Source of the DNA: Pseudarthrobacter sp. C4D7 | Lineage (GTDB): Bacteria; Actinomycetota; Actinomycetes; Actinomycetales; Micrococcaceae | DNA length: 64,000 nucleotides | NCBI RefSeq assembly: GCF_013359725.1 | Contig: NZ_JABFMW010000018.1 | Coordinates: forward strand, 1-64,000 | Reading direction: 5' to 3' | In this document: piece after piece, positions 8,547 to 34,913 of the stretch | How positions within the stretch are numbered: position 1 is the stretch's first letter | Layout: each line of letters opens with the position of its first letter | The notes under the pieces: model-generated | Seen by the model: only the letters and a program-made list of their open reading frames with translations | Databases searched by the model: none | Told to the model about the DNA's origin: nothing | Program-made: the position numbers and the translations under genes

Positions 8547-10178
8547 TTATCGGTCGAGTCCGGGGCCGGATTCGCGCCCCGTGTGCTGGTGGTCCTTCGT
8601 CGGTGTCGGTGTCGTGGGTACTGCCGAACCTGGGCGGATGGGAGCCATGCCGCGAAGCCCAAGTTCCACGGACTTTGGCGCCGGCATCTGTTCTGACGTG
8701 GCTTGTTCGGGTGCGCCTACCGTGACTGGTTTAGGCATCGTGGCAGCGAAGGGCTTCAGCTGTTCGGTCACGACGGCGCGGATACGCTGCGCCTCCCGTT
8801 TGCGTCCCGATTGCTGGTGCATCTCGTGGATGGCAAAGGCAGTGTTCACCAGCTGCAGCATGAGGGCGGCTTGGGCCGCTGTCTTGTTCTTGCTCGACGC
8901 TGCCATGAACAGCATGGCCGTCCCCGCGATGGACGGCAGCGGCACAGGTTTGCTGTGCTGGCGTGGCGCACGCAACTGCGCTGTGCGGGACAGCTCCGCA
9001 GCGGTCGCAGCCAGCGGTCCCGGCGTGGGTTCGAGTCGATGCGACCATGCTGCAAATGCCCCCGAAACTTCCCGGGCCGCCTTCGCCCACGTGGCGTGGT
9101 CATCCCGCGGCAGTACCCGCAGCTTTTCAACCAGCGCCGCAGCATTGCGGGTGTACTCCACCCAGACATCGGCTGACGGCGTGGCGTTCTCAGGACCCGT
9201 CCTGGAGACCTTGCGCTTGTTGCGCGCGGCCGCGTTCCACTCGGCTGCAGCCTCCGTGGCCAACGGCGGGGAATCCATCCATTCCTCACGCAACGCACCG
9301 AGCTTCAGGTCCGAAGCCAACGTGCCGCCGCCGAACCAAATAGGACGCTCACCCGCTTTCGGGCGTTCGGCCACGGAGTAACCCACGATGACGTCAGTGG
9401 TGTTCTTCGCGTATCGCGGCCGGAGCAGCATTCCTGTGTCCCTGGCCCTCCGAACGAACTCTGCTTCGGTCGCTGACGCACTCGCGCTGGCGCGCACTTT
9501 CCGTGCCAGCGCACTGCGGTGCATTTCCCGCTCGTCACGGGCGGCCGTTGCCTTCTCGGCCCGGTCGTAACCGCGGGTGGCGTGCACGGTTGAGAGCTGT
9601 TCCAGACCGTACTTGACCTCCAGCTCGCGGCAGGTCTGCTGGGCCCTCTTGTAGTCGCCGTGCGTGGATGCCTTGGTGCCGTCTTCACGGACCAGGGACA
9701 CTGCGATGTGGATGTGGTGGTTGCCGTTCTCCGATGTGCCGTGATTAATCGCGGCCCAGCGGCAGCGTGCCTTCCCGCTGGTCTCGGTGAAGCCCATGGC
9801 GTCCACGAAGTCGTTTGCGATGTCACCCCACTGCTGGTCCGTCAGTGCGCCTTCCTCGGCACGCAGGCTCAGCGAGCAGTGCCAGACGCTGGCATCCTTG
9901 TACCCGACGTGGACGCGCTCCTTTTTGGCCGCATCCCACTGCATGTCCTTGATCTGAACTGACACACCAAAGGCCTTCCGGGGCCGGTCAAGGTGCTTGG
10001 CGATGGCCAGGGCATCGTCCTTATCCAGAACACCGTCGTCGTACCAGGCCATGATCGCCGCGTCGCCGGCCACTAGGTGTGGTTCGGTGTGCGCGTTCTT
10101 CGTCTTATCGGCATCCGTGGATGCGAGATACAGGACAAGGCCGGCCATCCGAGAGCCGCGGGTGATGTTAGGAATCAT
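8547..10178 (-). CDS. Relaxase / mobilisation nuclease (MobA/VirD2-like)
   Basis: The 543-residue protein starts MIPNITRG, typical of relaxases of this group. It carries a metal-binding histidine motif NHHIHI at about 153-158 and HCSLSL near 100. A Tyr in the N-terminal part would attack the nic site and stay bound to the 5' end. The C-terminal half is Ala- and Arg-rich and less conserved-looking. The gene starts 4 bases after the mobC stop, so the two are translationally coupled. A candidate oriT lies upstream of mobC. MOBP or a related class is likely from the motif spacing, but this needs a profile search. Confidence 0.85.
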   Translation of the reverse strand: MIPNITRGSRMAGLVLYLASTDADKTKNAHTEPHLVAGDAAIMAWYDDGVLDKDDALAIAKHLDRPRKAFGVSVQIKDMQWDAAKKERVHVGYKDASVWHCSLSLRAEEGALTDQQWGDIANDFVDAMGFTETSGKARCRWAAINHGTSENGNHHIHIAVSLVREDGTKASTHGDYKRAQQTCRELEVKYGLEQLSTVHATRGYDRAEKATAARDEREMHRSALARKVRASASASATEAEFVRRARDTGMLLRPRYAKNTTDVIVGYSVAERPKAGERPIWFGGGTLASDLKLGALREEWMDSPPLATEAAAEWNAAARNKRKVSRTGPENATPSADVWVEYTRNAAALVEKLRVLPRDDHATWAKAAREVSGAFAAWSHRLEPTPGPLAATAAELSRTAQLRAPRQHSKPVPLPSIAGTAMLFMAASSKNKTAAQAALMLQLVNTAFAIHEMHQQSGRKREAQRIRAVVTEQLKPFAATMPKPVTVGAPEQATSEQMPAPKSVELGLRGMAPIRPGSAVPTTPTPTKDHQHTGRESGPGLDR

Positions 10179-14010: not shown

Positions 14011-14461
14011 AATAGGGATCCTGCCGCATTTTTCGGGGTTTTTCGCTTCCAGTTCGGTTATGTAGCTCAACCTAAGGGCTATTGGCCCTATAACCACTTC
14101 TGTCGATTTCAGAAGCTGATCGCACAAATGTCAGAAGTCCTATTCACATAGCCCACACTGGAGCCTAGCGTGGCGGGTTTTCGGCAGTAGAAGGCAGGTG
14201 ACGCCGCCGGCGACTGTGGTCATCCCCGCAGGCTCGCCAAAGCGAGAGCCCCCCTGTGCCCTAAGAGGCTCCCCCGCTCCCGGCGCCGCAGGAAACCATG
14301 GCGGAGAGGTGGCACTGGTATGTGTCGTCCCTGCTGGAGAGACCTTGGCCGCCGATGCCGGGTGCGCCGGCCCTGGTCGTCGTGGCCCATGGGGAAGTCC
14401 GCCGCGGAGTCCCCGCCTTGCCTTGCCGGCCTCCTGCCGGTGCACGCTGCAGTACGCGCGG
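14011..14461. other. Stretch without a recognisable gene
   Basis: Open frames here give low-quality translations rich in Pro, Gly and Cys. The right part lies just beyond the SRAP stop, so its terminator may be present, but I see no strong hairpin. The left part is AT-rich and probably promoter DNA. Confidence 0.45.
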
Positions 14462-29374: not shown

Positions 29375-29411
29375 GGAAGGACCGGCACCAGTTCACGGTG
29401 CCGGTCCTTCC
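29375..29411. terminator. Strong hairpin terminator
   Basis: GGAAGGACCGGCACC pairs perfectly with GGTGCCGGTCCTTCC around a 7-base loop. A similar hairpin lies at 33111-33144, and both are followed by the same 18-base element (29420-29437 and 33153-33170). No convincing gene lies between 29201 and 29374. Confidence 0.7.
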
Positions 29412-29419
29412 TGGGTTTC

Positions 29420-29437
29420 CCTCTGCAAAGGAAATCT
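29420..29437 (+). repeat. Conserved CCTCTGCAAAGGAAATCT element, copy 1
   Basis: These 18 bases recur exactly at 33153-33170, both times just after a GC hairpin. The core CCTCTGCAAA-GGA recurs in opposite orientation at 31036-31049, 32445-32458 and 34570-34583, in the ribosome-site region of three genes. Confidence 0.7.
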
Positions 29438-29636
29438 GTGTTTCAGCGTAGCTGAATTGCGGGTGCTGCTGCCACGGGATGGGGATCTTCGTTGTTCCTG
29501 GTCCCGCGGGGAATTGGTTTCTGGGGTTGTGTCGCGTGGAGCGGCGGTCCGCCGCTGGTGAGTAGTTGCTGTGGTTCGCCCTAGCGGCGGACCGCCCCAC
29601 TTTGGGAGGTTCCCGGTCCGCCGCTGGTGGTTGGTG

Positions 29637-29674: not shown

Positions 29675-31027
29675 CTACGCGGCTTCGGTGCTGGTTTCCT
29701 TGCCGCTGTCGATGATGATCTGTTCAGTCTCGGATGCGGTGTAGCCCCAGGTGACCAGCTGGTTGAGGTAGTCGCGGTGGCTTTGGTGCGGTGAGCGCCA
29801 TGAGTCCTTGGCGATGGTCTTCTCGTATCCTGCGCAGATCAGGGCGATCAGGGAGAACTCGGGCCTGTTGGTGGTGTGGGCGACGTGGTCGCGGAGCGGG
29901 TTCCAGCCCCAGCGTCCTGCCTTGTCTTCGGTTTTGGCTCCGATCATGTCGGCGGCCACTTCGCCCTGGTAGCCGCTGGCGGTTTCGGGGTGGTGGGTGA
30001 TGGCGTGGACGGTGAAGTACTGCCATCCCTTGGGTGCCTGCTTGCGTGCGAGCAGGGTTTTCACGAACTCGCGGCGGACGACACCAGCGGATTCCATGGC
30101 CTTGTTGTTGGCGATCAGGGTCTTCCGCTCTGCTTTCTGTTCCTCGGTCATGGGGCCGGACTGTGCGGGGCGGCCGCCGTCGTCGCGTTCGTGGCGCGGG
30201 GTGAAGCCGAGTTCCTTCCAGCCGTTGATGACTGGTTTGGCGGAGTGGTGGCCTTGCCAGTTGCGCTGGATGACGTAGGCGTTGGCGTCGTCCTCGGTGG
30301 CGGGTTCTCCGTCGGCCCGGTTCGCGGCCGAGACGTACAGGGCTTCTTCGTCCGCGTAGTGGCCCGCGTCCTCCACGATGGTCTTGCCCTGGCCTTCGAG
30401 TTCGGCGACCAGCGCGGCGCGGGCGGCGGCGATGTCCCGCTTGTCCCGCAGGCGCTGGGTGACGTGCAGGAGCATGTCGGGTTCGTCGGCGAGGACTGAT
30501 TCGAGTTCCTCGGTCGCGTCGGGGTCGTCTTCAAATTCGGCCAGAATCAGGGCTTCTTCGATGGTGCATCCCTTGCCCAGGGCGGTGTCCCCAGCCGTGG
30601 TGGACTTGGCCTTCAGGGCATCCTCGACATTGATCTTGGTCCGCCCGGTCTTCTTGGCGATCTGTGCCGCTGAGACGCCGATCAGGGAGAGCTGGTGGTA
30701 GGCCTCGGCTTCGTCGGCCTCGGTCAGCGCGGAGCGTTGGATGTTCTCGACCACCTGGGTGAGGATGCGTTCTGCTTCCTCGGGGCTGTCGGTGACCATG
30801 ACGGGGATCTCGGGGCGTTCGGCTTCGACGGCTGCGCGGGTTCGGCGCTGTCCTATCAGGACGTGCACGGTGCCGTCTTCCTTGCGGTGCGCGATCACGG
30901 GCTCGAGTACGCCGTGTTCCTTGATGCTGGCCACGAAGGCAGGGGTGAGCGCGGCGTCTTTGCGGACGTTGACGTCGATGGTCAGGGTCTTGGGGTCGAG
31001 CATTTCCAGCGTGGGTGTGGTGTTCAT
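29675..31027 (-). CDS. ParB/Spo0J-domain protein
   Basis: The 450-residue protein has a ParB N-terminal domain at about 5-100, with GQRRTRAA (59-66) corresponding to the CTP-binding box of ParB proteins, and an HTH near 110-140 (VSAAQIAKKTGRT). The long C-terminal half is helical and acidic and lacks a match to ordinary ParB. No parA lies next to it; the plasmid's parAB pair is at 38.3-40 kb. A role in plasmid DNA organisation or regulation is more likely than simple partition. The ATG at 31025-31027 follows AAAAGGAG. The frame upstream of it is the repeated leader, not coding. Confidence 0.8.
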   Translation of the reverse strand: MNTTPTLEMLDPKTLTIDVNVRKDAALTPAFVASIKEHGVLEPVIAHRKEDGTVHVLIGQRRTRAAVEAERPEIPVMVTDSPEEAERILTQVVENIQRSALTEADEAEAYHQLSLIGVSAAQIAKKTGRTKINVEDALKAKSTTAGDTALGKGCTIEEALILAEFEDDPDATEELESVLADEPDMLLHVTQRLRDKRDIAAARAALVAELEGQGKTIVEDAGHYADEEALYVSAANRADGEPATEDDANAYVIQRNWQGHHSAKPVINGWKELGFTPRHERDDGGRPAQSGPMTEEQKAERKTLIANNKAMESAGVVRREFVKTLLARKQAPKGWQYFTVHAITHHPETASGYQGEVAADMIGAKTEDKAGRWGWNPLRDHVAHTTNRPEFSLIALICAGYEKTIAKDSWRSPHQSHRDYLNQLVTWGYTASETEQIIIDSGKETSTEAA

Positions 31028-31378
31028 GGTGTTGCTCCTTTTGCAGAGGATTCCGGTGGGTGGGGCGACCAATGGTGACCGGCCAGCTTCCCTCTCCCCC
31101 CGTTGTTTTTTGGCTGCTGGCGGAGCTTGCGGAGCTGTGCCCGACGGAGGCCCGTCTACCCGCCAGGGCAAAGGACGGGAAATTCCTGAAGGAAATAAGC
31201 GAGGAACGAGCGCCGCAAGGAAATTCCAGGCCTGCAGGCCCCGACGAAGGAGGGGCTAGACGGGGTGGAGCGGGCACGTACGATCCGAAGGACAGCAGTC
31301 AAAAAACGTCGTAGACACACCAGGTCCAGGGACGGCGGAGCCGGCACTGGACCCAACAGCCGGCCGCGCCAGCGGACG
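31028..31378 (-). promoter_or_regulatory. Repeated structured leader, copy A
   Basis: This segment is identical to copy C (34562-34913) over about 350 bases and similar to copy B. It lies directly upstream of the ParB-domain gene and contains its ribosome site. On the minus strand, CCCGTCTA (complement of 31257-31264) can pair with TAGACGGG (complement of 31151-31158), enclosing hairpins at 31159-31179, 31183-31194 and 31238-31256. A further stem lies at 31323-31353. A TTGACT box (complement of 31297-31302) may be a -35 element. A transcribed, structured leader is the best reading; a free ncRNA is also possible. Confidence 0.65.
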
Positions 31379-31504
31379 ACCGAATCAGTGTGAGCCCTGC
31401 GAGCACCATTCTTTGTCCTGCGCCCTATTGGACTTTTCCTGGGCCGGCCAGGAGGCTGGGCGCGTCCGGGCGGCAAGGTGATGAGCGTCAGTCTTTTCGG
31501 GATT

Positions 31505-31558
31505 GGCGGGCCGCCGCCGGCGACCACCGCGGCAACTGCACCGTTGCGGCGGCCCGCC
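31505..31558. repeat. GC-rich inverted repeat
   Basis: GGCGGGCCGCCGC at 31505-31517 is the exact complement of 31546-31558. A smaller inverted repeat sits in the loop. It lies between leader A and the terminator of the DUF3846 unit, in a gap without a gene. Confidence 0.6.
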
Positions 31559-31572
31559 CGGACCTGGGCCGG

Positions 31573-31615
31573 CAGGCAGGTGGCCGGGAGCTTTCCGTTC
31601 CCGGCCACCTGCCTG
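31573..31615 (-). terminator. Terminator of the DUF3846 operon
   Basis: A perfect 17-base stem (CAGGCAGGTGGCCGGGA and its complement) with a 9-base loop begins 5 bases past the stop at 31620. Confidence 0.85.
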
Positions 31616-31619
31616 GTTC

Positions 31620-31970
31620 TTAGGCGGAGAGTTGGGCGTCGAAGAGGTCTTCGGCGAGCCCGACGAGGTAGTCGGGGACGTCAGTCTCTTCGCCATGAGT
31701 GCCTTGGCCCAGGAAGACCACGTCACCGCAGAAGATGTCGTTCAGGTAAAGCCCGGTTTCGCGGAAGAGGTGTCCTGCGCGGATGTTCGCGGGCAGGTTG
31801 ATGATCTTCCCTTCCTCGTTGAGGTAGGCGTGCCATTCGCCGCGGGTGATGGCTTCGATATTGCCTTCGACCAGGGCCTGCAGCGTGGGCAGGGATGGGG
31901 TGATGGTTTCGGTACGGACGGGCTGGGACAGCCGGGCCGGGACGATCAATGCGGTGCAGGTGGTGCTCAT
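31620..31970 (-). CDS. DUF3846-family protein
   Basis: The product is about 116 residues. The pattern TLQALVEGNIEAI...WHAYLNEEGKIINLPANIRA...IFCGDVVFLG is that of DUF3846 proteins, which are common on actinobacterial plasmids and phages and have no known function. The second ATG (31968-31970) is preferred, because AAAGGAG lies 7 bases before it but only 1 base before the first ATG. It follows the 142-residue gene by about 37 bases, and both are under leader B. Confidence 0.8.
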   Translation of the reverse strand: MSTTCTALIVPARLSQPVRTETITPSLPTLQALVEGNIEAITRGEWHAYLNEEGKIINLPANIRAGHLFRETGLYLNDIFCGDVVFLGQGTHGEETDVPDYLVGLAEDLFDAQLSA

Positions 31971-32007
31971 GGTCATGCTCCTTTAGGAAAGTTTGGGGCT
32001 GTACTGC

Positions 32008-32436
32008 TTAGGCGGCGTGGACGGCGTAGGGCATCCGGTACCGGCTGGGCAGTTCCGCCGCGGCTTCGGGCAGGTCGGCCGGGCCGTGGGCCTGCCCGTT
32101 CTTCCAGTGGAAGAACGCCTGCTCGGTGATGGCGTCCCACTGCCGGGCTTTGGTCCGGTAGTAGGTGGTTTTCACGTCGCCCTCGCAGTAGGTTGCGACG
32201 CCGAACAGGTTGCCGATGGAATCGGCGGTGCGAATGGCCGCGACCATGACGTAGGGCCACTGGCCAAGGTCCCAGCCCTCGCTCCCCCAACTGGGGATCA
32301 CGGTCCAGCCGTGTTCGGCGATAAGGTCCATCCAGTCGTACCCGCCGTTGGCGTGGTAGTCGCGCAGGACCGGGGCGTCGGTGATGACCTCGCCGGTATC
32401 GGCGGTGGTCACCGTCTCGGTGGTGATCGCGTTCAT
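32008..32436 (-). CDS. Hypothetical plasmid protein
   Basis: The 142-residue protein is not assigned. It has a Trp-, Tyr- and His-rich core (GYDWMDLIAEHGWTVIPSWG, WPYVMVAAIRT) and a short Thr-rich N-terminus. The sequence is clearly protein-like and soluble. It starts directly after leader B with ribosome site AAAAGGAG and is followed by DUF3846, so it is the first gene of a two-gene unit. Confidence 0.7.
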   Translation of the reverse strand: MNAITTETVTTADTGEVITDAPVLRDYHANGGYDWMDLIAEHGWTVIPSWGSEGWDLGQWPYVMVAAIRTADSIGNLFGVATYCEGDVKTTYYRTKARQWDAITEQAFFHWKNGQAHGPADLPEAAAELPSRYRMPYAVHAA

Positions 32437-32790
32437 GGTGTTACTCCTTTTGCAGAGGAATGTGGTGGGTGGGGCGACCAGGGGTGACCGGCCAGCTTCC
32501 CCTCTCCCCCCGTTGTTTTTTGGTTGCTGGCAAGCTTGCTTGCTCGGCGGCCGACGGAGGCCCGTCTACCCGTAGGGCAAGGCCGGGAAAATCCTCGGAG
32601 GAAATAAGCGAGGAACGAGCGCCGGACAGGAATTTCGCGGGTGCAGGCCCCGACGAAGGAGGGGCTAGACGGGGTGGAGCGGACGCCTAGAATCCGTAGG
32701 ACAGCAACCAGAAAACGTCGTAGACACACCAGGTTCAGGGGTGGCGGAGCTCTGCGACGGCGCCCCTGAACCCAACAGCCGGCCGCGCCA
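32437..32790 (-). promoter_or_regulatory. Repeated structured leader, copy B (diverged)
   Basis: This copy is about 80 percent identical by eye to A and C. It keeps the CCCGTCTA/TAGACGGG pair (32561-32568 with 32666-32673). The outer stem has GGTTCAGGGG/CCCCTGAACC (32732-32741, 32763-32772) where A and C have GGTCCAG/CTGGACC. One G-C pair has become an A-T pair, with both sides changed. This supports a selected secondary structure. The ribosome site and spacing to the ATG are the same as in A and C. Confidence 0.65.
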
Positions 32791-32865
32791 GCGGACGCCC
32801 ACCAGGGTGAAGCGCAGCGGAACCCGCAGCGCGCCCCGCGCGCTGCTTCTGCGTAGGGTGGGCGT

Positions 32866-33111
32866 ATGAATGACCCGGAAGCGCAGCATCCCGGCGGTCG
32901 TAGTGGCCGCCCACGGACCGGGCCGGACTATTCACGGATTCAGCGGATCCTGGTGTTGATTTTCACGGCAGCCGCAGCTGGCTGCTGGGTGCTGGTGGCG
33001 GCAGACCTGGCTGTAGGGCGGCCGGCGGGAGGCGATGTCTTCATCGCCGCGCTCAACACTCTCGCGGCCGCAGCGTTTTGGTGGATGGCTGCGAGCAACG
33101 GCGCGAGATAG
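32866..33111 (+). CDS. Small membrane protein, two helices
   Basis: The 81-residue protein has two hydrophobic helices at about 27-48 (RILVLIFTAAAAGCWVLVAA) and 57-75 (VFIAALNTLAAAAFWWMAA), with a basic N-terminus facing the cytoplasm. Function unknown. It is divergent from leader B and is followed at once by a terminator hairpin overlapping its last base. A GC-rich inverted repeat near 32825-32850 lies before the start. Confidence 0.65.
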   Translation: MNDPEAQHPGGRSGRPRTGPDYSRIQRILVLIFTAAAAGCWVLVAADLAVGRPAGGDVFIAALNTLAAAAFWWMAASNGAR

Positions 33112-33144
33112 GAAAGGCCGGCACTTGTGTGTGCCGGCCTTTCC
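33111..33144 (+). terminator. Terminator after the small membrane protein
   Basis: GGAAAGGCCGGCAC pairs with GTGCCGGCCTTTCC around TTGTGT. It is followed by GGGTTTT and then the conserved 18-base element at 33153-33170. Confidence 0.85.
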
Positions 33145-33152
33145 GGGTTTTC

Positions 33153-33170
33153 CCTCTGCAAAGGAAATCT
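33153..33170 (+). repeat. Conserved CCTCTGCAAAGGAAATCT element, copy 2
   Basis: Exact copy of 29420-29437, again next to a hairpin terminator. With the inverted cores in leaders A and C, it brackets the ParB-domain and DUF4192 units. Confidence 0.7.
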
Positions 33171-33197
33171 ATGGGTGCGGCGTCATTGCCGCGGGTG

Positions 33198-33350
33198 TCA
33201 CTGCTCGTCGAGTCGGTGGTCTTTGACGGGCCGGTCCACGGGTCCTGTGATCGGTCCTGCGGTTAGCAGGCTCAGTTCCAGGATGTCTTCCAGCGGGCTC
33301 GCGTCCGGGGCAACGGTGTCGTCTTCGGTCATGCGGAAGGGGTCAGCCAC
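33198..33350 (-). CDS. Small acidic hypothetical protein
   Basis: A 50-residue frame begins at a GTG preceded by AAGGAG at good spacing. The product is acidic at the N-terminus (MTEDDTVAPDASPLEDILEL) and has no membrane segment. Longer starts upstream give a non-protein-like extension. Function unknown. It lies downstream of the DUF4192 gene on the same strand, behind that gene's terminator. Confidence 0.5.
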   Translation of the reverse strand: MADPFRMTEDDTVAPDASPLEDILELSLLTAGPITGPVDRPVKDHRLDEQ

Positions 33351-33508
33351 GTGCGAGGCTCCTTGACTGTCTGGGATGGGCGTCGTCCCTTCACAGTATC
33401 GGTTGTTCCTGCAGCCCGGCTGGAAGTCGCGGCGCCCGCGGCAGCGTCCAACGCGGCCGGAGGAGCCCTGGCGGGGGAGGCCGCCGCGCACCTGGGAAAC
33501 CCAAACAG

Positions 33509-33543
33509 GTAGGCCGAACCCCTTTGTGTGGGGTCCGGCCTAC
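33509..33543 (-). terminator. Terminator of the DUF4192 gene
   Basis: GTAGGCCG pairs with CGGCCTAC, continuing after one mismatch into ACCCC/GGGGT with loop TTTGTGT, directly past the stop at 33548. Confidence 0.8.
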
Positions 33544-33547
33544 GGGT

Positions 33548-34561
33548 CTAGCGGCTCAGTTGTCGGTCATACGCCTTCTTCGGGTCGCGGGTGCAGTCGG
33601 CGAGCAGGCCGCGGTTGACCAGTTCGCCAAGGAGTTCGGCGAGTCGGTAACCGTCGACGTCCTCCAGTGCGAGCTTGAAGTAGCGGGCGGCGAAGCTGGA
33701 CTTTCCTTTGAGCCATTCCAGCCAGCCCATCAGGCACAGCATCGGTGCGCGCTGCCCTTCAGGGGTAGCCTTCATGAGTTCGAACGCCACTTCCTGGGCG
33801 GTGTCCACGCGGGCCCAATCAGGGCGGGTGAGGAACACACCGAGCATGACGGAGGTGAACTGGTCGGGTGCGTGGGTGATGATGTCACCCATCATGTAGT
33901 CCCGGACGGTGGGGTGCTGCAACGCTCCTGCCAGCTGGTGCGCGGTCTGGGTGGTCAGGCTCTTGGGGTCATCGAGCACCTTTGCCCACGCTGCGCGGCT
34001 GGCTTCCAAGTCCTCGGGCCAGCCGTCGGGCTTGTGCGCGGCGATCGCCTCGCGTGCTGCCTCGTCCCCGGTGAACGGTGCCGGTGCGGTGAAGCCGGTA
34101 ACGGCACTCCCCCGGTAGATCAGGGCGGCGTTGCCGGTACTGGTGGTGATGGCGTCCAGTGACTGGTTGGGGCAGCAGCTGGTGTCCATGCAGTGGTAGT
34201 TCCGCCACAGTTCGGAGGTCACCAACCATGCGTCCTGCAGTGGCATCCCGGCGGTTTCCAGTTCGGTGCGCAGGGCCTCCACGTGCCCGGAGTACGGGCG
34301 CGGATCCTCGGTGGTGTCCTCATCGGTGTAGATCACCAGAAGGCTGCCGGTGGCTGCGTCGTCGGCCGTCAGGTAGCTGACGATGGTTTGGGCATAGCCG
34401 ACCGGGTCCTGCCCGAACGGTGCATCGACGCGCAGGGTCGCACCGAGCTTGTTACCCTGCATGGTCAGGGCGACGAAGGACTCCGTAGGGGTTTGTCCCA
34501 GCGTGTGCGGGATGAAGGCCAGGATGTCGGCGGGGCCGGTGAACCTGATGGGGTCGTTCAT
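33548..34561 (-). CDS. DUF4192-family protein
   Basis: The 337-residue protein shows the DUF4192 pattern: PADILAFIPHTLGQTPTESFVALTMQ at the N-terminus, then GATLRVDAP, LLVIYTDED and a helical C-terminal half (FELMKATPEGQRAPMLCLMGWLEW). The family is widespread in actinobacteria on chromosomes and plasmids, and its function is unknown. The ATG at 34559-34561 follows AAAAGGAG. The frame upstream is leader C and is not coding. Confidence 0.85.
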   Translation of the reverse strand: MNDPIRFTGPADILAFIPHTLGQTPTESFVALTMQGNKLGATLRVDAPFGQDPVGYAQTIVSYLTADDAATGSLLVIYTDEDTTEDPRPYSGHVEALRTELETAGMPLQDAWLVTSELWRNYHCMDTSCCPNQSLDAITTSTGNAALIYRGSAVTGFTAPAPFTGDEAAREAIAAHKPDGWPEDLEASRAAWAKVLDDPKSLTTQTAHQLAGALQHPTVRDYMMGDIITHAPDQFTSVMLGVFLTRPDWARVDTAQEVAFELMKATPEGQRAPMLCLMGWLEWLKGKSSFAARYFKLALEDVDGYRLAELLGELVNRGLLADCTRDPKKAYDRQLSR

Positions 34562-34913
34562 GGTGTTGCTCCTTTTGCAGAGGATTCCGGTGGGTGGGGC
34601 GACCAATGGTGACCGGCCAGCTTCCCTCTCCCCCCGTTGTTTTTTGGCTGCTGGCGGAGCTTGCGGAGCTGTGCCCGACGGAGGCCCGTCTACCCGCCAG
34701 GGCAAAGGACGGGAAATTCCTGAAGGAAATAAGCGAGGAACGAGCGCCGCAAGGAAATTCCAGGCCTGCAGGCCCCGACGAAGGAGGGGCTAGACGGGGT
34801 GGAGCGGGCACGTACGATCCGAAGGACAGCAGTCAAAAAACGTCGTAGACACACCAGGTCCAGGGACGGCGGAGCCGGCACTGGACCCAACAGCCGGCCG
34901 CGCCAGCGGACGC
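34562..34913 (-). promoter_or_regulatory. Repeated structured leader, copy C
   Basis: Identical to copy A from the start codon to about 34913, after which the two differ. With B it shares a further stretch past this point (GTGGAGCGCAGCGGAA against GTGAAGCGCAGCGGAA). The pairing CCCGTCTA/TAGACGGG lies at 34685-34692 and 34791-34798. Identity to A suggests recent duplication or gene conversion. Confidence 0.65.

Follow-up and report, generated by a model that had tools for sequence, protein, structure and literature searches.

Introduction

Promoters that work on single-stranded DNA (ssDNA) are known from the Frpo elements of conjugative plasmids, in which a stem-loop restores the two boxes (-35 and -10) and early expression in recipients depends on it (PMC9849209; PMC11541004; these and the other papers given by PMC number are cited from the parts of their text that were available). 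Transcription from the single strand has been shown for plasmid F (PMC9849209), and similar sequences, found with the known Frpo sequences, are widespread among conjugative elements (PMC11541004). Such transcription of the entering strand explains how the first plasmid proteins can be made before any double-stranded DNA (dsDNA) is present. In this study, we have analysed three repeated leaders that precede genes in Pseudarthrobacter sp. C4D7 (contig NZ_JABFMW010000018.1, positions 1 to 64,000; this whole stretch of 64,000 nucleotides is hereafter the window). We propose, with a probability of roughly three in four, that these leaders are ssDNA promoters which act like the Frpo of F without resembling it in sequence. 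We also think it probable, with a little less confidence, that they form a separate family of ssDNA promoters, unrelated to Frpo, that serves Gram-positive (Micrococcaceae) conjugative plasmids and turns on establishment genes during strand entry.

The parallel with F is one of layout and of logic. Frpo1 and Frpo2 of F and the related elements of ColIb-P9 are, like the leaders, repeated non-coding elements of several hundred bases that stand before leading-region genes. In F these genes include a ParB-domain gene, and there too the strand that templates the genes forms a hairpin in which -10 and -35 are rebuilt (PMC9849209). In silico, the leaders rebuild both boxes on a single strand, and the promoter of the folded strand points into the gene (61 of 72 related copies). 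The two systems differ in that the genes behind the leaders include those for DprA, DUF4192 and a 142-residue protein, and in that the hosts are actinobacterial. A profile of the leaders, compared by nhmmer with positions 50000-70000 of F, gave no hit at E<=10. Two 90% repeats of that region are what we take to be Frpo2 (in front of ssb) and Frpo1 (in front of the gene at 14033), and the hexamers of the leaders score above any scanned on the gene-distal arm of these two repeats. Given this Frpo-like logic and the lack of similarity to F, the leaders would be Frpo-like in mechanism and outside the Frpo sequence family.

Closer in taxonomy are the EGeRS of the pLS20-family plasmids (Bacillus), which are likewise repeated regulatory sequences of establishment operons on Gram-positive conjugative plasmids (PMC8708921). 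The authors of that work reject an ssDNA promoter for EGeRS1, whose fold holds no promoter and whose nicked strand is the non-template one (PMC8708921). Unlike EGeRS1, the Arthrobacter leaders do hold a promoter in their fold, and the entering strand would, judging from the relaxase, be the template. The start-associated sequences (SAS/ESAS) of mycobacteriophages are also repeats just upstream of start codons; they are much shorter than the leaders and are not known to contain a hairpin promoter. The nearest relatives may already be in print: DNA repeats 5' of DUF4192, DprA and ParB genes were described on related Arthrobacter plasmids by Mihasan & Brandsch 2016, as reported in citing papers (so described in PMC10494377, and the repeats mentioned in PMC6305408), whose available text takes them to mark a shared partition and conjugation and does not present them as ssDNA promoters. 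The leaders lie 5' of the same three kinds of genes on Arthrobacter-type plasmids, a match that is one of description rather than of sequence, and a 165,141-base plasmid of Paenarthrobacter nicotinovorans is among the leader matches, with dprA under the match. Repeats of this type are thus already known, and it is the proposed function that is new among the literature searched. That literature (largely without subscription papers, and with one search swamped by unrelated papers) yielded no ssDNA promoter in Actinobacteria or on Gram-positive plasmids; within the same range, largely without subscription papers, it yielded no function for the Arthrobacter repeats. A further paper sought Frpo with known and putative sequences and, in its available text, reports no actinobacterial ssDNA promoter (PMC12826799).

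Three leaders in the window

The first-pass annotation, made from the window alone, had pointed to two identical leaders and a diverged third, each in front of a minus-strand gene. Alignment bears this out. Copies 1 and 3 match over 357 bases at 100% (likewise over a 300-base core), and copy 2 is 85% identical to them, a 10-base insertion being among the differences; the start codons (ATG at 31027, 32436 and 34561, minus strand) and Pfam matches place them before a ParB-domain gene, the gene of the 142-residue protein and a DUF4192 gene. The repeats run on into the first two codons, and the earlier statement that the copies are non-coding holds for the body of the leader and fails for these two codons. 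A core pattern allowing up to 2 mismatches occurs three times in the window and in none of 100 shuffles, which shows that the recurrence is not due to chance.

Predicted promoter and hairpin on the template strand

Searching 66 sequences with a profile returned 185 hits, of which 114 cover at least 88% of the model; 106 of these are unique and 72 remain below 92% identity. These 72 non-redundant copies share a conserved promoter, consisting of a TTGAC-like -35, 16 bases and a YANRAT -10, on the gene-distal arm of the template strand (plus in the window), where it reads from the loop to the base of the hairpin. A strict scan finds it at one place of the template strand in 61 of the 72 copies, with 2 more at a 15-base spacer, and finds none on the coding strand of the aligned leaders; a loose scan recovers 68 of 72 at the template-strand site, and no place of the coding strand exceeds 2 of 72. 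Four positions never vary among the 72, namely the opening T of the -35 and, in the -10, the A at positions two and five and the final T; the -35 is mostly TAGACG in close copies and mostly TTGACG in divergent ones. In dsDNA this promoter faces away from the gene, but folding of the single strand turns it towards the gene. Its position is strong strand-specific evidence. The earlier annotation had seen in the leaders a regulon of several units under one signal. A common control signal remains the simplest reading, but since the conserved promoter is carried by the other strand than the genes, the evidence favours an ssDNA promoter formed by the template strand over an RNA leader or an ordinary dsDNA regulon.

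The consensus fold of the 72 copies is one long hairpin that takes up the central part of the leader. In an alignment of 47 copies, hand-picked from the 106 unique ones, 94.0% of the cells of a 44-pair structure are paired, against 82.6% in shuffled alignments; 26 pairs and 226 cells are changed on both sides (17.5 and 68.1 when shuffled). Its covariation score is 0.333, compared with 0.130 when shuffled and at most 0.098 when slid, a comparison in which the true position is favoured over slid versions because structure and score come from the same alignment. When all column pairs of the alignment are ranked by covariation score, the top six fall within the hairpin. The best of them, 79.4, stands against a maximum of 79.3 in 200 alignments simulated on the tree without pairing, in which sequences differed slightly more from one another than in the real alignment (median identity 0.63 vs 0.67). 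In the predicted folds the mean unpaired probability is 0.19 for the -35 and 0.65 for the -10 (0.95 for its fifth base), the lower stem being at 0.08. The pairs that hold the -35 change on both sides, from TAGAC/GTCTA to TTGAC/GTCAA (UA in 26 and AU in 16 of the 47 copies).

A separate feature of the hairpin is an apical stretch of the template strand (alignment columns ~197-224) that is strongly conserved and mostly unpaired, GGAGGAAATAAGCGA..AGGAGCGCC. The promoter model does not require it, and it could be a contact for the polymerase, single-stranded DNA-binding protein (SSB) or primase.

Position relative to the relaxase

In all 29 loci that bear a relaxase (MOBP 17, MOBF 12), every leader is on the strand of the relaxase gene and upstream of it, the nearest leader being 2.6 to 20.8 kb away (median 3.2), and leader strands are mixed in none of 54 loci with several leaders. 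For this set two stretches (L046, L060) were removed as duplicates of others (L038, L039), and 35 of the remaining 64 had no relaxase hit in the DNA covered; three pairs of stretches (L048/L049, L070/L071, L072/L073) each come from one contig. Plasmid F shows the same order: on one strand lie ssb, a ParB gene, psiB and then the tra genes, with oriT between the leading-region genes and the tra genes. A relaxase gene is typically in the lagging region (PMC11541004). With a relaxase on the lagging side, the leader genes would face oriT from the leading side, and the entering strand would be their template, as far as the position and strand of the relaxase can tell.

Table 1. Features of the leader region and the relaxase gene, in window coordinates.
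Feature	Coordinates	Strand	Remarks
Leader copy 1	31022..31378	-	5' of ParB-domain gene; gene-proximal end spans first two codons
Leader copy 2	32431..32797	-	85% identical; 5' of 142-residue gene
Leader copy 3	34556..34912	-	identical to copy 1; 5' of DUF4192 gene
Template-strand hairpin, copy 1	31101..31311	+	outermost predicted pair 31101/31311; DNA fold, family covariation
-35-like TAGACG, copy 1	31257..31262	+	all six bases paired with 31153-31158
-10-like TACGAT, copy 1	31279..31284	+	4 of 6 bases unpaired
Template-strand hairpin, copy 2	32511..32720	+	DNA fold
-35-like TAGACG, copy 2	32666..32671	+	all six bases paired with 32563-32568
-10-like TAGAAT, copy 2	32688..32693	+	5 of 6 bases unpaired
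Template-strand hairpin, copy 3	34635..34845	+	DNA fold
-35-like TAGACG, copy 3	34791..34796	+	all six bases paired with 34687-34692
-10-like TACGAT, copy 3	34813..34818	+	4 of 6 bases unpaired
ParB_N-domain gene	29675..31027	-	450 aa; behind copy 1; Pfam E 1.5e-10
142-residue gene	32008..32436	-	behind copy 2; no Pfam match
DUF4192 gene	33548..34561	-	337 aa; behind copy 3; Pfam E 3.3e-38
DUF3846 gene	31620..31976	-	follows 142-residue gene, same strand; without own leader
Relaxase gene	8547..10178	-	PF03432; same strand as leaders, downstream of them, 20.8 kb away

Genes behind the leaders

Among 143 leaders with the 3' end present (a set that still contains the two duplicated stretches), 139 have nearby an open frame of 35 codons or more, and it begins exactly at the start codon of the leader in 134. 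The genes had been called unrelated, which is right for their mutual relation; they are not arbitrary, since four families account for 127 of the 132 distinct proteins (DUF4192 41, ParB 36, the 142-residue family 31, DprA 19; names from Pfam matches and the annotations of plasmid stretches). The 142-residue family has a predicted structure of mean pLDDT 91.7 (26 alignment rows), for which a comparison with the PDB gave nothing at E<=0.001; the best Z, 4.5, is of little weight.

In one stretch (L076) a protein that by eye resembles the DUF3846 protein of the window stands directly behind a leader. A DprA-like protein linked to a leader in another (L041, 18173-19081) matches the ShosA model of PADLOC (E 5.9e-48). 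We read the PADLOC matches, to ShosA and PsyrA, as a shared DprA domain; such plasmid DprA genes might accordingly be miscalled as defence genes.

Proposed mechanism

We suggest the following course of events. As the plasmid enters by conjugation as one strand, each leader on that strand would fold into a hairpin of ~210 bases, whose gene-distal arm carries the -35 and the -10. The -35 would be held in duplex by the opposite arm, and most of the -10 and the start region would lie in an internal loop and so be open from the outset. The RNA polymerase of the host could then start at the open -10 with the gene-proximal arm as template and run into the gene ~95 bases further on, which places the predicted starts within the leaders, ~95 bases before the ATG, near 31120, 32529 and 34654. 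The genes switched on in this way would be those of the ParB-domain, DUF4192, DprA or 142-residue proteins, whose presumed role is in establishment. After conversion to dsDNA, expression would cease because the hairpin is gone and the promoter faces away from the gene.

If this is right, ssDNA promoters have arisen more than once, and a second family in Actinomycetota, unrelated in sequence, would make them a general solution. A promoter that faces away from its gene inside a covarying hairpin would be a general way of finding them, the repeats known since 2016 would gain a function, and the DUF4192, DprA-like and 142-residue proteins would become candidates for early establishment or for anti-defence.

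Evidence from two strand-of-folding tests is to be read with their controls. On the template strand, wobble changes inside the hairpin are 83 G.T against 25 A.C (minimum changes on the tree), compared with 55 to 63 outside it, a share reached in 1 of 200 simulations. As DNA, the fold is more stable on the template than on the coding strand in 72 of 72 copies, and this is also the case for the two repeats of F (-141.5 vs -130.3 and -147.6 vs -132.5); 10% of random windows differ between strands as much as the mean of the leaders. The two tests lend weak support, because known RNA genes, taken as controls, lack the opposite bias that would be expected of them; these were RNase P (22 loci out of 24) and tRNA (27 loci out of 30, from 47 found).

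Several points weigh against an ssDNA promoter. The stability test shows no sense bias for these known RNAs (RNase P 8 of 22, tRNA 10 of 27), and RNase P has no G.U bias in the wobble test (46 to 43). Singly, 2 of 91 predicted pairs reach E<0.05; the change of the -35 pair is mostly one split between groups of copies and by itself is not significant (E=86, by simulation), and two copies have a poor -35 (TCAGTG). As a positive control, F fails, in that the promoter scan does not pick out its elements. With regard to geometry, the leaders of the window are the farthest from their relaxase among the 29 loci, a nic motif of RP4 type is not consistently present upstream of the relaxase gene in the 17 MOBP loci, and the nicked strand is deduced from the position of the relaxase. 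Finally, the whole support is computational.

Alternative explanations

The alternative that survives best, unlikely as we consider it, is that the folded strand serves chiefly for single-strand initiation, as a site at which RNA polymerase makes a short primer for second-strand synthesis and the gene matters less. It fits the same hairpin and promoter, and the founding Frpo paper names, in its title, primer synthesis together with transcription. What speaks against it is that in 134 of 143 cases a gene begins right at the start codon of the element, with the same four families recurring, and that priming alone has no obvious need of several copies on one plasmid (the records listed have 1 to 6 places).

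An RNA leader, in which the folded 5' region of the messenger RNA controls each unit in cis, is still less likely. The coding strand folded as RNA does covary (term 91.0, against 95.5 for the template as DNA), but it carries no conserved promoter in the aligned leaders, and an RNA leader would leave unexplained the conserved -35 and -10 of the opposite strand and the unpaired -10. The wobble changes, for which the RNase P control showed no bias, likewise favour the template strand. None of the covariance models of Rfam 15 matches the window at the gathering score, and with this blank and the promoter on the other strand we set the RNA leader aside.

We give as little credence to an ordinary dsDNA promoter that fires away from the gene and serves either a gene upstream or the production of an antisense or regulatory RNA. 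The hexamers do read outward in dsDNA, the change in the -35 pairing is not significant on its own, and 7 of 20 leaders in five annotated plasmid stretches have, by eye, a divergent upstream neighbour (umuD in L220). In the other 13, by a PLSDB gene table that is incomplete, the annotated upstream neighbour is on the strand of the leader gene (the count leaves out one fragment, L041 19289), and such a promoter has no need of a covarying hairpin whose arms enclose it. That the leaders are dsDNA repeats bound by a protein for partition or regulation, such as the ParB-domain protein, is most improbable: they do precede parB, and the available literature discusses them under 'partitioning and conjugation', but a dsDNA site needs neither ends at start codons, nor one strand per locus, nor the hairpin, nor the promoter.

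Distribution of the leaders

The first-pass annotation had made its proposal depend on homologous leaders elsewhere, and these are widespread, which leaves the proposal standing in this respect: they occur in 63 PLSDB records, 117 of the 395 genomes sampled from the bacterial family of the window (16 of 32 genera) and at least 116 GTDB stretches. The PLSDB records hold 191 leader places, with 1 to 6 places per record among the records listed; they belong to Arthrobacter (36), Paenarthrobacter (16), Pseudarthrobacter (9) and Citricoccus (2), and 44 of the 63 are typed as conjugative. The GTDB figure comes from a pattern scan, and 77 of the 80 matches listed bear the title Arthrobacter, Pseudarthrobacter, Paenarthrobacter or Sinomonas; one is titled Kiloniellaceae and may be chance. 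Two of the 80 (L123, L141) are titled 'Vibrio cholerae strain 35D', a title that is probably wrong, a like contig being filed in the window's own family (genome G352). In a class-wide sample the exact core pattern was present in 1 of 394 genomes, the host itself, which is a weak negative for spread beyond the family because the pattern recovers just 3 of the 8 host matches and misses 5. A phage origin was rejected, as INPHARED gave no match at E<=1e-5.

The 8 matches of the host genome lie on 4 contigs, and the three contigs other than that of the window (C51, C20 and C38; stretches L083, L084 and L085) end within leader copies, which indicates that the assembly breaks at the leader repeats. 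Beyond the contig of the window, the host probably has at least three more leaders. One of these contigs (C38) also has a relaxase gene.

Neighbouring features

Apart from the leaders, the window holds a 43-base direct repeat (29398-29440 and 33131-33173, 88% identical), the end of which resembles the ribosome-site region of the leaders (CTCTGCAAAGGA). Among the neighbours of the leaders on related plasmids, an SSB gene lies between ParB and the relaxase in two of three annotated mobF stretches. Operons of umu type flank anti-defence islands (PMC11541004), and umuDC is found near the leader island, on the opposite strand, in three annotated stretches (L039, L042, L220), in one of which (L220, 19214-20370) umuD is divergent and immediately upstream of a leader.

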